Shown piece by piece: positions 17,895 to 43,892 of a stretch of 64,000 nucleotides of DNA. The position numbers and the translations under genes are program-made. The notes under the pieces were generated by a model, which searched no databases, was not told the DNA's origin, and saw nothing but the letters and a program-made list of their open reading frames with translations. The DNA comes from Geovibrio thiophilus (GTDB lineage Bacteria; Chrysiogenota; Deferribacteres; Deferribacterales; Geovibrionaceae), in NCBI RefSeq assembly GCF_004087915.1, contig NZ_CP035108.1:372001-436000 (forward strand), in the 5' to 3' direction. Each line of letters begins with the position of its first letter. Positions within the stretch are counted from its first letter, which is position 1.

Positions 17895-18083
17895 TTACGG
17901 TAAAAATTTACCGTCCATGGAAATTTTTATACACGCTCACGCCGTGGTGAACACGGCTTCACTTCGCACGGCGCATTATCTGTCTTGCCGCTCCAAAAAC
18001 TACATCCTGTGTTTTTTCCGCACACGCTCGCGCCGAAACAGGTTCGGCTTCGCTTCGCACGGCGCAGTTCCATCCATGGAACT
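17895..18083. repeat. Mosaic hairpin repeat, two inverted-orientation copies
   Basis: Two copies of the dispersed mosaic repeat lie here, both in the orientation CACACGCTCGC ... TTCGCACGGCGCA. Copy one has hairpin TAAAAATTT/AAATTTTTA (17901-17929), frame ACACGCTCACG, and inner hairpin GCCGTG/CACGGC (17941-17957). Copy two has hairpin arms AAAAAC/GTTTTT, frame GCACACGCTCGC, inner hairpin GCCGAA/TTCGGC (18032-18048) and outer hairpin AGTTCC/GGAACT (18066-18083). No gene is evident. It fills the convergent gap between nuo and the nickel transporter. Confidence 0.8.
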
Positions 18084-18118
18084 GTTTGCGTCCCGAGGAA
18101 AGAAGAGGACATTAATAA

Positions 18119-21308: not shown

Positions 21309-21395
21309 GTGTTACATATTATGTATGATGTGTTATCATCATGACATGAAAAAGTCAATACGTGTTATTGTGATGATTAATGATTTTTGTGTTAC
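21309..21395 (-). promoter_or_regulatory. Candidate metal-regulator sites before nickel transporter operon
   Basis: The element GTGTTA(C/T) occurs four times in the same orientation: 21309, 21330, 21362 and 21389. The first pair is spaced GTGTTAC-N14-GTGTTAT. Between them an ATGATG/CATCAT inverted repeat flanks TGTTAT. NikR sites reported for some groups are GTGTTAC-N13/14-GTAACAC; here spacing and half-site agree but the second half-site is direct, not inverted. A NikR-like operator is inference. Confidence 0.4.
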
Positions 21396-21407
21396 GGGAA
21401 TTATGGA

Positions 21408-21809
21408 GTTGCGCCGCGCGAAGCGAAGCCGTGTTCACCACGTCGCGAGCGTGTATCCGAAATTTCCAAGGATGGTAAATTTTGGATTATCAAGAGAGAG
21501 ATTGCTTCACCCTTTCAGGGTTCGCAGTGACGCCTTAGAGCTTAACAACTCCATGGATGGAGTTGCGCCGTGCGAAGCGAAGCCGTGTTCACCACGGCGC
21601 GAGCGTGTATCCGAAATTTCCAAGGATGGTAAATTTTGGATTATCAAGATAAGACGTTGCGCCGTGCGAAGCGAAGCCGTGTTCACCACGGCGCGAGCGT
21701 GTATCCGAAATTTCCAAGGATGGTAAATTTTGGATTATCAAGAGAGAGATTGCTTCACCTTTTCAGGGTTCGCAGTGACGCCTCAGAGCTTAACAACTCC
21801 ATGGATGGA
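21408..21809. repeat. Composite mosaic repeat array (A-B-A-A-B)
   Basis: An 88-base unit A occurs three times (21408-21495, 21562-21649, 21656-21743) and a 66-base unit B twice (21496-21561, 21744-21809), nearly identical. Unit A contains frame GCGCCGTGCGAAGCGAAG, inner hairpin GCCGTG/CACGGC, frame GCGAGCGTGTATCC and hairpin AAATTT..AAATTT around CCAAGGATGG. Unit B holds the ATTGCTTCACCC...TTCGCAGTGACG family and hairpin AACTCC/GGAGTT. Copy 1 carries one mismatch in the inner hairpin (CACGTC). Open frames across it on either strand are repeat-derived and not credible genes. Confidence 0.85.
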
Positions 21810-21852
21810 GTTGCAGCGAACAGGATGTCCGGATTAACGCTATTACATAAAG

Positions 21853-21885
21853 AAAAAGGCTTGCTCTTTATAGAAGCAAGCCTTT
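21853..21885 (-). terminator. Terminator of the initiator tRNA
   Basis: AAAGGCTTGCT (21855-21865) pairs with AGCAAGCCTTT (21875-21885), an 11-base perfect stem. Read on the minus strand it is followed by a T run, ending the tRNA transcript 14 bases after its 3' end. Confidence 0.85.
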
Positions 21886-30929: not shown

Positions 30930-30992
30930 ATACTCTTCCCAAAAAACTGCTTTTGTTTTTTTAACTATCCCTGCATTGCTTCTGATTTGATG

Positions 30993-31086
30993 ATGCCGCA
31001 TTTGTCATCCTGAAAATTCGGCATACACGCTCGCGGTTTGCAGAGCAAACCTTCGCTGCGCACGGCGCATCTCCATCCGTGGAGCT
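30993..31086. repeat. Mosaic hairpin repeat at the 3' end of htpX
   Basis: The copy has outer hairpin ATGCCG/CGGCAT (30993-31024) whose loop holds CATCCTG, frame ACACGCTCGC, inner hairpin GGTTTG/CAAACC (31035-31051), frame TTCGCTGCGCACGGCGCA and hairpin CTCCA/TGGAG around TCCG. It ends two bases from the htpX stop codon. The bases flanking it (CCTGCATTGCTTCTGATTTG at 30969 and CCTGCATTGCCTCTAATCTG at 31092) are an imperfect duplication of the htpX 3' end. Confidence 0.75.
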
Positions 31087-31087
31087 G

Positions 31088-31936
31088 TTACCCCTGCATT
31101 GCCTCTAATCTGGCTATGCGCTCCTCCACAGGGGGGTGTGTGGAGAAAAGATTCATTGCCTGACGCCCGGAGAACGGGTTCATAATGAACATGTGCGCCG
31201 TGGCGGGCTGAGCGTCGTCCATGGGGGCGGCTGCCACTCCGCCGGATATTTTGCGCAGTGCGTTTGCCAGCGCTTTCGGTTTTCCGCAGAGCTTCGCGCC
31301 GCGGGCATCGGCTATGTACTCCCTTGATCTGGAGATAGCCATCTGTATCATCATCGCGGCTATAGGTGCTATTATCATCGCCGCGATCGCCGCAACAGGG
31401 TTGCTGTTTTCACCGTCACTGTTTCTTGAACCGCCGAAGATCATAGCCCACTTAGCAGTATTGGCTATCATCATTATAGCGCCCGCAAAAGTTGCCGCTA
31501 TCGTGCCGATAAGTATGTCACGTCCGTAGATATGCGCCAGCTCGTGGGCAAGAACGCCTTCAAGCTCATCATCACTGAGCAGGTCAACAATACCTGTTGT
31601 CACAGCCACTGCGGCGTTTTCGGGGTTTCTTCCCGTGGCGAAAGCGTTGGGAGCCGGATTGTGGATAACGTAAACCTTGGGCATGGGTATGCCTCCTTTA
31701 GCGGTGAGACCGCGCACTATGCGGTGGATGCCGGGGGCTTCCGTTTCGTCCACTTCAACAGCCTTGTACATCTTCAGCACTATCTTGTCGCTGAACCAGT
31801 AGGAGAAGAAGTTCATTCCTACCGCAAAGATAAAGGCGAACATCATTCCGCCTCTTCCGCCTATGAGACCTCCCACAAACATGAAAAGCACAGTGAGAAG
31901 CGTCATGAAGAATGCCGTTTTCATTGAATTGCTCAT
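31088..31936 (-). CDS. htpX: Zinc metalloprotease HtpX (M48 family)
   Basis: The 282-residue membrane protease has two N-terminal helices (about 8-24 and 30-47), the HELAH zinc motif at 131-135, two further hydrophobic segments (about 146-165 and 188-203) and the third-ligand region SREYIADARGAKL. The C-terminal FSTHPPVEERIARLEAMQG is the usual M48B end. It degrades damaged inner-membrane proteins. It is on the same strand as fmt, DUF116 and rsmB. Its 3' end is partly duplicated on the far side of a mosaic repeat. Confidence 0.94.
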   Translation of the reverse strand: MSNSMKTAFFMTLLTVLFMFVGGLIGGRGGMMFAFIFAVGMNFFSYWFSDKIVLKMYKAVEVDETEAPGIHRIVRGLTAKGGIPMPKVYVIHNPAPNAFATGRNPENAAVAVTTGIVDLLSDDELEGVLAHELAHIYGRDILIGTIAATFAGAIMMIANTAKWAMIFGGSRNSDGENSNPVAAIAAMIIAPIAAMMIQMAISRSREYIADARGAKLCGKPKALANALRKISGGVAAAPMDDAQPATAHMFIMNPFSGRQAMNLFSTHPPVEERIARLEAMQG

Positions 31937-42222: not shown

Positions 42223-42235
42223 GGAGGAAATGCCG

Positions 42236-43486
42236 ATGTTTATACTCGCTCTTAACTGCGGCAGTTCGTCCGCCAAGTACCAGCTTTATGACTGGGATAA
42301 CAAACGGGTTATCGCCAAAGGTGTTGTGGAGCGTGTCGGTATAGGCGACTCGTTCATCGTTCACGAAGTTGAAGGCAGACCCACTTACAGGGACGAATAC
42401 GAATGTCACGACCACGGAACTGCTGTGGAGCTGATCGTCAAGACGCTCACAGCGTCCGAGACGGGCGTTATCTCAAACATGAAGGAAATCTCCGCAGTGG
42501 GGCACAGGGTTGTCCACGGAGGAGATAAATTTAAAAGAAGCGTAAGGCTCGATGCCGATGTCATAAAAACAATTGAGGATGTCCAGCACCTCGCCCCTCT
42601 TCATAACCCCCCCAACCTCGCGGGGATAAGAGCAGCATATGAAGTCCTGCCGGATGTTCCGCAGGTGGCTATATTTGATACCGCCTTCCACCAGACAATG
42701 CCCGACTACGCATATATGTACGCTGTACCCTATGAGTGGCATGAGCATTACGGCGTAAGACGCTACGGTTTCCACGGCACAAGCCATCTTTACGTGTCCA
42801 AGCGGGCAGCGTCTCTCCTCGGCAAAAGCTCCAAGGAATGCAATATCATAACCATGCACATCGGCAACGGTGTTTCACATACGGCGATCAAAAACGGTGT
42901 GTCCGTTGACACTTCAATGGGGCTCACGCCTCTTGAAGGCGCCATAATGGGAACCAGATGCGGGGATATTGACCCAGCGATCCCGCTTTTTATGCAGGGG
43001 CAGCTTGATATAGACTACCGCAAGATGGACACGATTCTTAATAAAAAGTCCGGTATGCTGGGCATAAGCGGCAAATACACCGACAGAAGGGATATTCTCC
43101 AGTGCAACTTCCCCGACAGCAAGGACAGATGCCGCCTCGCCATAGATATGGAAGCCTACAGACTTAAGAAATACATAGGGACTTACTATGCTGTTCTCGG
43201 AAGGCTGGATGCCATAGTCTTTACCGCCGGCGTGGGCGAAAACGCAGGTATAATCCGTCAGAAGGCTCTGGAAGGGCTTGAGGATATGGGTATCATCGTT
43301 GATGAGCAGAAAAACCTCTCCACCTTTTCCAAGCACGGTGAGACAGAGATTTCAACGCCTGAGTCAAAGGTTAAAGTCTTCGTCATCCCCACCAACGAGG
43401 AACTCGTTTTCGTGGAGGATGTTGTGGCTATACTCAACGGAACCTACAAAGACCATACGGAGTATGAGTATTCGTTTCTTAAATAA
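42236..43486 (+). CDS. ackA: Acetate kinase
   Basis: The 416-residue enzyme starts MFILALNCGSSSAKY, with the phosphate-site motif NCGSSS, FHGTSHLYVS, MHIGNGVS and TAGVGENAG typical of acetate kinase. The start ATG 42236 is eight bases after AAGGAGG; the ATG at 42230 is only two bases from it and is unlikely. It makes ATP and acetate from acetyl phosphate, or runs in reverse for acetate use. Together with pta and the upstream 2-oxoacid oxidoreductase operon it could support substrate-level phosphorylation. A hairpin (CCGCACC..GGTGCGG) follows its stop and is duplicated 316 bases further on. Confidence 0.95.
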   Translation: MFILALNCGSSSAKYQLYDWDNKRVIAKGVVERVGIGDSFIVHEVEGRPTYRDEYECHDHGTAVELIVKTLTASETGVISNMKEISAVGHRVVHGGDKFKRSVRLDADVIKTIEDVQHLAPLHNPPNLAGIRAAYEVLPDVPQVAIFDTAFHQTMPDYAYMYAVPYEWHEHYGVRRYGFHGTSHLYVSKRAASLLGKSSKECNIITMHIGNGVSHTAIKNGVSVDTSMGLTPLEGAIMGTRCGDIDPAIPLFMQGQLDIDYRKMDTILNKKSGMLGISGKYTDRRDILQCNFPDSKDRCRLAIDMEAYRLKKYIGTYYAVLGRLDAIVFTAGVGENAGIIRQKALEGLEDMGIIVDEQKNLSTFSKHGETEISTPESKVKVFVIPTNEELVFVEDVVAILNGTYKDHTEYEYSFLK

Positions 43487-43838
43487 ATAATCGCCGCACC
43501 CGCGTCCTGCGGTGCGGCTGAAACCGCTCGCGGCTTGCAAAGCAAGCCTTCGCTCCGCACGGCGCAGCATCTTGTCTTTATATCCAAAATTTACCATCCT
43601 TGGAAATTTTGGACACACGCTCGCGGACGGCTTAGCCGTCCTTCGCTCCGCACGGCGCAGCATCTTGTCTTTATATCCAAAATTTACCATCCTTGGAAAT
43701 TTTGGACACACGCTCGCAGACGGCTTAGCCGTCCTTCGCTCCGCACGGCGCAGCCCCATCCATGGGGCTGTCAAGACAATGCGGAGTATAATAATGGTGA
43801 TAATAATCGCCGCACCTGCATCCTGCGGTGCGGTTTAA
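43486..43838. repeat. Mosaic hairpin repeat array with flanking duplication
   Basis: A 93-base unit is repeated in tandem (starts at 43547 and 43640, third partial at 43733). Each has frame TTCGCTCCGCACGGCGCAGC, hairpin TCCAAAATTT/AAATTTTGGA around ACCATCCTTGG, and frame ACACGCTCGC. Inner hairpins differ: GGCTTGC/GCAAGCC (43532-43548), GGACGGC/GCCGTCC (43625-43641) and GACGGC/GCCGTC in the third. A terminal hairpin GCCCC/GGGGC ends the array. The array is bracketed by a direct duplication of about 35 bases (AATAATCGCCGCACC at 43486 and 43802) containing a CCGCACC/GGTGCGG hairpin, the likely ackA terminator. Confidence 0.85.
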
Positions 43839-43854
43839 TTTCATAAAACGTTCT

Positions 43855-43892
43855 GACGTCATTGCGGACCCGAAGGGTGAAGCAATTTCTCC
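43855..43892 (+). repeat. GTCATTGCG...GAAGCAATCT-family repeat
   Basis: GACGTCATTGCGGACC followed by CGAAGGGTGAAGCAATTTCT. Related copies lie at 21496, 21744, 26599 and 48762 in this window. Short repeats with this pattern are widespread in bacterial genomes; no function is established. Confidence 0.7.

Follow-up and report, generated by a model that had tools for sequence, protein, structure and literature searches.

A dispersed three-hairpin element at the end of ackA in Geovibrio thiophilus and its probable insertion with target duplication

We analysed a stretch of 64,000 nucleotides of the Geovibrio thiophilus genome, hereafter the window, in which an array of short repeats follows the acetate kinase gene ackA. 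This array probably arose when a non-autonomous, dispersed element of three hairpins inserted beside the end of ackA and duplicated it, a reading to which we give a probability of about two in three. The element occurs at dispersed loci and has covarying stems. Some orthologous sites lack it, and direct repeats of host sequence accompany some of its copies. These repeats measure 17 to 31 bp relative to empty sites and reach about 56-60 bp within genomes.

Results

A duplicated stretch brackets the array next to ackA

A repeat search identified two direct copies of a 37-nt segment with a spacing of 316 (43486-43522 and 43802-43838; 33/37 positions identical, 89%). The stretch between them holds a tandem array (43547-43754) with a period of 93, 2.2 copies, and 99% matches. 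The stop codon of ackA, TAA, occupies 43484-43486, and the first copy begins on its last base. An earlier note on this DNA, which described a nearly identical segment starting in the ackA stop and bracketing the array, is confirmed on this point. The same note took the duplicated ~35 bp for the terminator region of the gene, which our results do not support: judged by its sequence, the 37-bp segment is mostly the first hairpin (HP1) of the repeat element itself. Elements at L057 (twice) and L059 start with hairpins of this kind, whose stems carry paired changes and which are followed by CTGAAACCGCTCGCG. A T-rich tail follows the right copy only, and the single terminator-like match (43816-43833) compares with 0.9 expected from shuffles. 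The hairpins that follow ackA in the congener G001 and in G003 are unrelated by eye.

The last ~13 codons of ackA are likely to be the target-derived portion of the duplication. Alignment of the left and right flanks of the site gives a score of 26 (empirical p 0.0057, 1406 control pairs from mismatched loci), and none of 500 shuffles scored as high as the whole border alignment. The part of this alignment outside the hairpin scores 13.5, which none of 2000 dinucleotide shuffles reached; the maximum was 9.0 among other ackA stretches (n=115) and 13.0 among other stretches of the window (n=1866), the 13.5-scoring stretch having been chosen post hoc, after inspection, and the control stretches excluding overlapping ackA windows. 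The putative diverged copy of the ackA end starts two bases past the hairpin that closes the array. Because the stretch was picked after being seen, we regard the upstream extension of the duplication, in which the right copy from 43773 would represent the diverged last codons of ackA, as likely rather than certain. A second dispersed repeat (GTCATTGCG...GAAGGGTGAAGCAAT) is found at 43858-43891, right after the right copy, and also adjoins several other arrays.

Table 1. Features of the ackA locus and other copies of the element in the window (R1, covariance model of the unit; G002, a congener).
Feature	Coordinates	Strand	Basis
ackA (acetate kinase) gene	42230..43486	+	ORF list; orthologues in two congeners (proteins 97% identical)
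Left copy of the duplication: 3' end of ackA and HP1	43449..43522	+	Alignment to right copy
Array unit 1	43489..43579	+	R1, 53.6 bits, E 1.3e-14
HP1 of unit 1, stem CGCCGCACC, TCC in the loop	43492..43517	+	Pattern search
Array unit 2	43581..43672	+	R1, 82.7 bits, E 5.2e-24
Array unit 3	43674..43775	+	R1, 107.8 bits; among the 36 sequences from which R1 was built
HP3 closing the ackA array, CAGCCCCA-TCCA-TGGGGCTG	43751..43770	+	Hairpin scan
Putative right copy of the duplication, diverged, with second HP1 at its end	43773..43838	+	Alignment; 37-bp core; hairpin and downstream sequence common to G002 (by eye)
Second HP1, right border, no unit after it	43808..43833	+	Pattern search
Other array of the family, 2 units	17898..18089	+	R1
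Other array of the family	21393..21876	-	R1
Single unit; duplication of 17 bp, empty site in G002	30992..31092	+	R1; block position A0:91026

The element consists of three covarying hairpins

We read 37 loci of the source genome (G000), among which L093 and L094 hold no unit and L058 is a chance match. The element is a non-coding unit of ~100 bp, in the order HP1, a linker ending in CGCTCGCG, HP2, the linker TTCGCTnCGCACGGCG, and HP3. HP1 and HP3 have variable stems and TCC loops, and the linkers are conserved. In an alignment of 36 chosen units (102 model positions, structure placed by hand from pairing frequencies), 90.4% of the stem cells are paired against 68.8% after shuffling, and the covariation score is 0.550 against 0.173 (0/500 shuffles as high). 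Pairing falls to 49-58% when the partner is shifted by one column. One covariation measure, the occurrence of further pair types, is unexceptional (38/500 shuffles). Swapping arms between units approximately halves the stem scores in all three hairpins (own/swapped arms: 8.03/3.34 for 65 HP1 stems, 5.02/2.34 for 51 HP2 stems, and 6.18/3.25 for 45 HP3 stems). In HP2 and HP3 taken together, 122 cells changed on both sides and none changed on one side while keeping the pair (no G-U), with mismatches in 9 of 467 cells; HP1 shows 5 one-sided paired changes. This pattern is unlike RNA selection acting via G-U intermediates.

Two further observations concern the hairpins. At the left array ends of L081, L069, and L071, an HP1 of one type breaks off at CATCC|TGTC and another type takes over, suggesting that joining is preferred at a point in the hairpin loop. 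Between orthologous copies, HP2 differs as a whole block with constant linkers, both for window 43489-43775 against L078 and for window 30992-31092 against L116:16173-16274, as if hairpins were swapped among units.

Distribution and genomic setting

In the source genome, which is one contig of 3.0 Mb, a DNA search gave 72 matches; across 59 genomes including the source, with up to 12 candidates being scored in each, matches occurred only in the source and two congeners. Using the covariance model R1 (E<=0.001), we found the element in 11 of the 12 genomes of the host family, with none in G005. There are at least 150 units in the source genome, at least 150 in G002, and 142 in G001; beyond these, we counted 98 weaker matches in G003, 8 in G007, and 2 to 7 in each of six other genomes. 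Three loci of G003 show, by eye, hairpins with CATCC loops and different linkers. GTDB genomes were also scanned with an exact pattern. The scan, which may leave out the source genome, returned at least 40 stretches, and two organisms are among the matches listed: Deferribacterales bacterium Deferri_01 (LUZY01) and Denitrovibrio sp. BM701 (PKTM01). Rfam at gathering threshold yielded one tRNA in the 64-kb window.

Arrays are rarer in divergent intergenic regions (3/47 against 107/408 gaps, p 0.0018) and commoner in convergent ones (14/47 against 57/408 gaps, p 0.009), in a count where 47 of 48 arrays were placed and orthologous arrays were counted separately.

Host sequence is duplicated at part of the insertion sites

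We compared arrays with orthologous sites judged array-free in two syntenic blocks (31 comparisons, some arrays being counted twice). Three of these comparisons revealed an insertion with a duplicated target, of 17, 22, and 31 bp, that is single in G002. The 31-bp duplication accompanies an insert of 100 bp, and upstream of it G000 has an additional HP3-like hairpin that is absent from G002; because of this hairpin, the site is not one simple insertion. Two other positives (B1:38470) have a negative insert and are spurious. The remaining 26 comparisons show a gap instead of an overlap and no duplicated target; flanks at sites where no duplication was detected may be too diverged. At least one supposedly empty site, that of A0:234493 in G001, holds a divergent element.

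A second test, made with the units masked, compared the left flank of 47 arrays with the sequence following them, using 1052 cross-block controls. Direct flank repeats were found at 12/47 arrays with p<=0.01 and at 15/47 with p<=0.05, and the other 35 arrays have no flank repeat at p<=0.01. The 12 arrays become 10 once two that involve repeat-family sequence are set aside: A0:151089 resembles the leader and a hairpin arm of the element, and A0:81411 resembles another dispersed repeat. Two of the 12 (B0:129597 and B2:130317) are one orthologous locus. The longest cases include B0:12923, where a 60-bp repeat with a hairpin arm follows the last unit, and B2:57899 of G002, where 56 bp of a gene end are repeated, stop codon included. 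In a flank test of 38 loci, 9 reached p<=0.01, and five of these include the element's own hairpin. In G007, flank repeats were recognised by eye at L133 (26 bp, 23 identical) and L019 (14 bp, 13 identical). The latter, in another genus, is a related element lying between pta and ackA, i.e. at the other end of ackA.

These results support the conclusion that the family inserts with target duplication. The suggestion of the earlier note that the repeats inserted with a target-site duplication is supported for the family, given the lengths found against the empty sites of a congener and the flank repeats of the 12 arrays, and is not supported for the 35-bp segment as it was put. Its remark that such a duplication would be unusually long agrees with what the family does.

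The ackA site in relatives

Orthologous sites offer no clean empty counterpart of the ackA array. By eye, G001 has neither an array nor a hairpin of the HP1 kind 3' of ackA, and its comparison with our site gives no overlap (-99). G002 has one unit against three here, yet possesses both HP1 hairpins and similar sequence beyond the right one (by eye), so the bracket is either older than the divergence of the two lineages or common to them through exchange, and the size of the array differs. In G002, TTAAATAG (the end of ackA, stop included) and then CTGACGTATAA come before the right copy; CTGACGTATAA resembles the leader found before HP1 elsewhere. Only TTAAATAG matches in the ackA-derived part of this copy, which is not significant (298/2000 shuffles), and neither are the cross-comparisons of the ackA-derived part (103/2000 and 893/2000 shuffles).

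An array-free relative with a single copy of the segment would have confirmed an insertion with duplication. The array-less G001 instead has one ackA end and zero copies of the hairpin segment, and G002 has its one-unit array and both hairpins. The opposite outcome, an array-less relative with both copies, which would have unlinked the duplication from the insertion, was not seen in the two congeners or in G003. The locus is best read as a succession of target, element, target, and, last, HP1 of a second unit.

Candidate enzymes and classes

We searched for enzymes that could move the element. The Y1 transposase domain (Y1_Tnp, PF01797) is absent from the four genomes G000-G003, with 5 of 14 control genomes positive, and DDE_Tnp_1 (PF01609) is absent from the source and both congeners. 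A reverse transcriptase (RVT_1) was found once in G001 and not in G000 or G002. Cas1 is present in G000 and G001 and absent from G002, even though the latter has at least 150 units; the match of G000 lies outside the window (G000:C1:1867116-1867823, L224). None of these four enzymes is thus common to the three genomes. Proteins with the rve domain (PF00665) occur in all three, and rve or other DDE enzymes are possible movers of the element.

Several known classes were considered. The arrays do not fit CRISPR arrays, because the spacers read in several of them are copies of the flank and because of the many units of G002 without Cas1. A REP/RAYT system is contradicted by the missing Y1 transposase and by the size of the unit, ~100 bp with three hairpins rather than a palindrome of 20-40 bp. 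An element of the IS1634/IS1549 type and a retro-element using target priming find no support in the distribution of DDE_Tnp_1 and of reverse transcriptase, respectively. As in MITE-like elements, the unit is short, non-coding (coding capacity being judged from unit size and stem variation), and dispersed; it shows target-site duplication, with the reservation that this concerns 3/31 comparisons and 12/47 arrays. No inverted ends were seen by eye.

Discussion

We propose that the element would enter at a staggered break, or a replicative equivalent of one, whose ends lie tens of bases apart. Fill-in of the staggered ends would duplicate the target, which at this locus would be the end of ackA. 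Tandem arrays may then form when units, or the duplicated flanks, recombine unequally. At ackA, a second unit would have been reduced to its first hairpin, leaving the near-identical pair of hairpins that brackets the array. We also considered a snap-back in which the right arm of HP1 is an inverted copy of the target, an idea prompted by L062, whose right copy runs as far as the left arm. It is ruled out at that locus by the G002 orthologue, whose right copy stops before the leader (by eye), so that a later deletion explains the state of G000. L095 and one locus of G001 look similar to L062.

Replication template switching could also yield host-element-host duplications, of any length and without a transposase, if a stalled polymerase copied the element elsewhere and rejoined behind its point of departure, rewriting stems in the process. 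The variable lengths of the duplications fit this account, as do the 122 two-sided changes of HP2 and HP3 with 0 one-sided paired changes, and passages of PMC8794818 argue that template switching makes and mends perfect stems. We nevertheless find it unlikely, since a single conserved family, built of defined modules and present in many copies, looks like something recognised by an enzyme. Moreover, one-sided states exist (9/467 mismatched cells in HP2 and HP3, and the 5 one-sided paired changes of HP1), and gene conversion between copies also explains the whole-block differences of HP2 seen by eye between orthologues. It is correspondingly doubtful that these hairpins spread and maintain themselves at the DNA level by template switching, with no dedicated transposase. 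If they did, both arms of a stem would be rewritten at once, and one-sided paired (G-U) intermediates would therefore hardly occur.

A history of tandem duplication only, in which slippage or recombination doubled the ackA end with a pre-existing hairpin and the array grew between the copies without any insertion, would account for the tandem units and for the whole HP1 of the right copy. We think it improbable, given that the same units stand at many unrelated loci, some of them empty in a congener with a single copy of the target, and that G001 lacks such a hairpin after ackA. The arrays might also act as decoy RNAs, a proposal that concerns their use and is compatible with mobility. Hairpins that bind CsrA typically display a GGA motif in the loop. 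The minus-strand loops of our element carry GGA (CAGGATG, CATGGATG), which recalls them, and the TCC loops are conserved on variable stems. HP2, however, has no GGA loop, and the changed cells in HP2 and HP3 include no G-U, a pair that RNA selection would tolerate. A search of the literature on CsrB/CAGGAUG found no paper. We hold the decoy proposal to be very improbable. Insertion of a mobile element with target duplication remains our preferred reading.

Modular hairpin arrays like those described here are also known from the BOX and NIME intergenic repeats. REP/BIME repeats, associated with RAYT, are likewise high-copy intergenic hairpins that are often clustered; REP are single palindromes of 20-40 bp with GTAG or CGTC tags, according to passages of PMC3733652, and members of IS200/IS605 make no larger target duplication, according to passages of PMC2817692. 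IS1634 and IS1549 also produce long and variable direct repeats upon insertion (8-514 bp, passages of PMC2266710) but are insertion sequences of 1.5-2 kb with a transposase. The nearest description, on the passages of PMC2229807 that characterise it, is YPAL/RU-2 of Yersinia, a non-coding repeat of 168 bp with internal inverted repeats, target duplications of 3-26 bp, and targets that span or adjoin dyad symmetry. By description, both elements are non-coding and palindromic, with target duplications of variable size; unlike YPAL, ours has three hairpins with conserved linkers, forms tandem arrays, and has the longer flank repeats reported above. Among the titles listed on Geovibrio repeats, Deferribacter palindromic repeats, and IS1549 or long or variable target site duplications, none describes the element. 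We file it as a variant of the small palindromic mobile repeats, with YPAL and REP/MITE types nearest, outside any named family.

As of 2008, no mechanistic model had been proposed for the long duplications of IS1549 and IS1634, as stated in passages of PMC2266710. The element described here offers a comparative system for the origin of long, variable target duplications. With many copies in three congeners, and with orthologous sites that are occupied in one genome and empty in another, it also makes testable whether paired changes in stems are made in a single step in the DNA itself.
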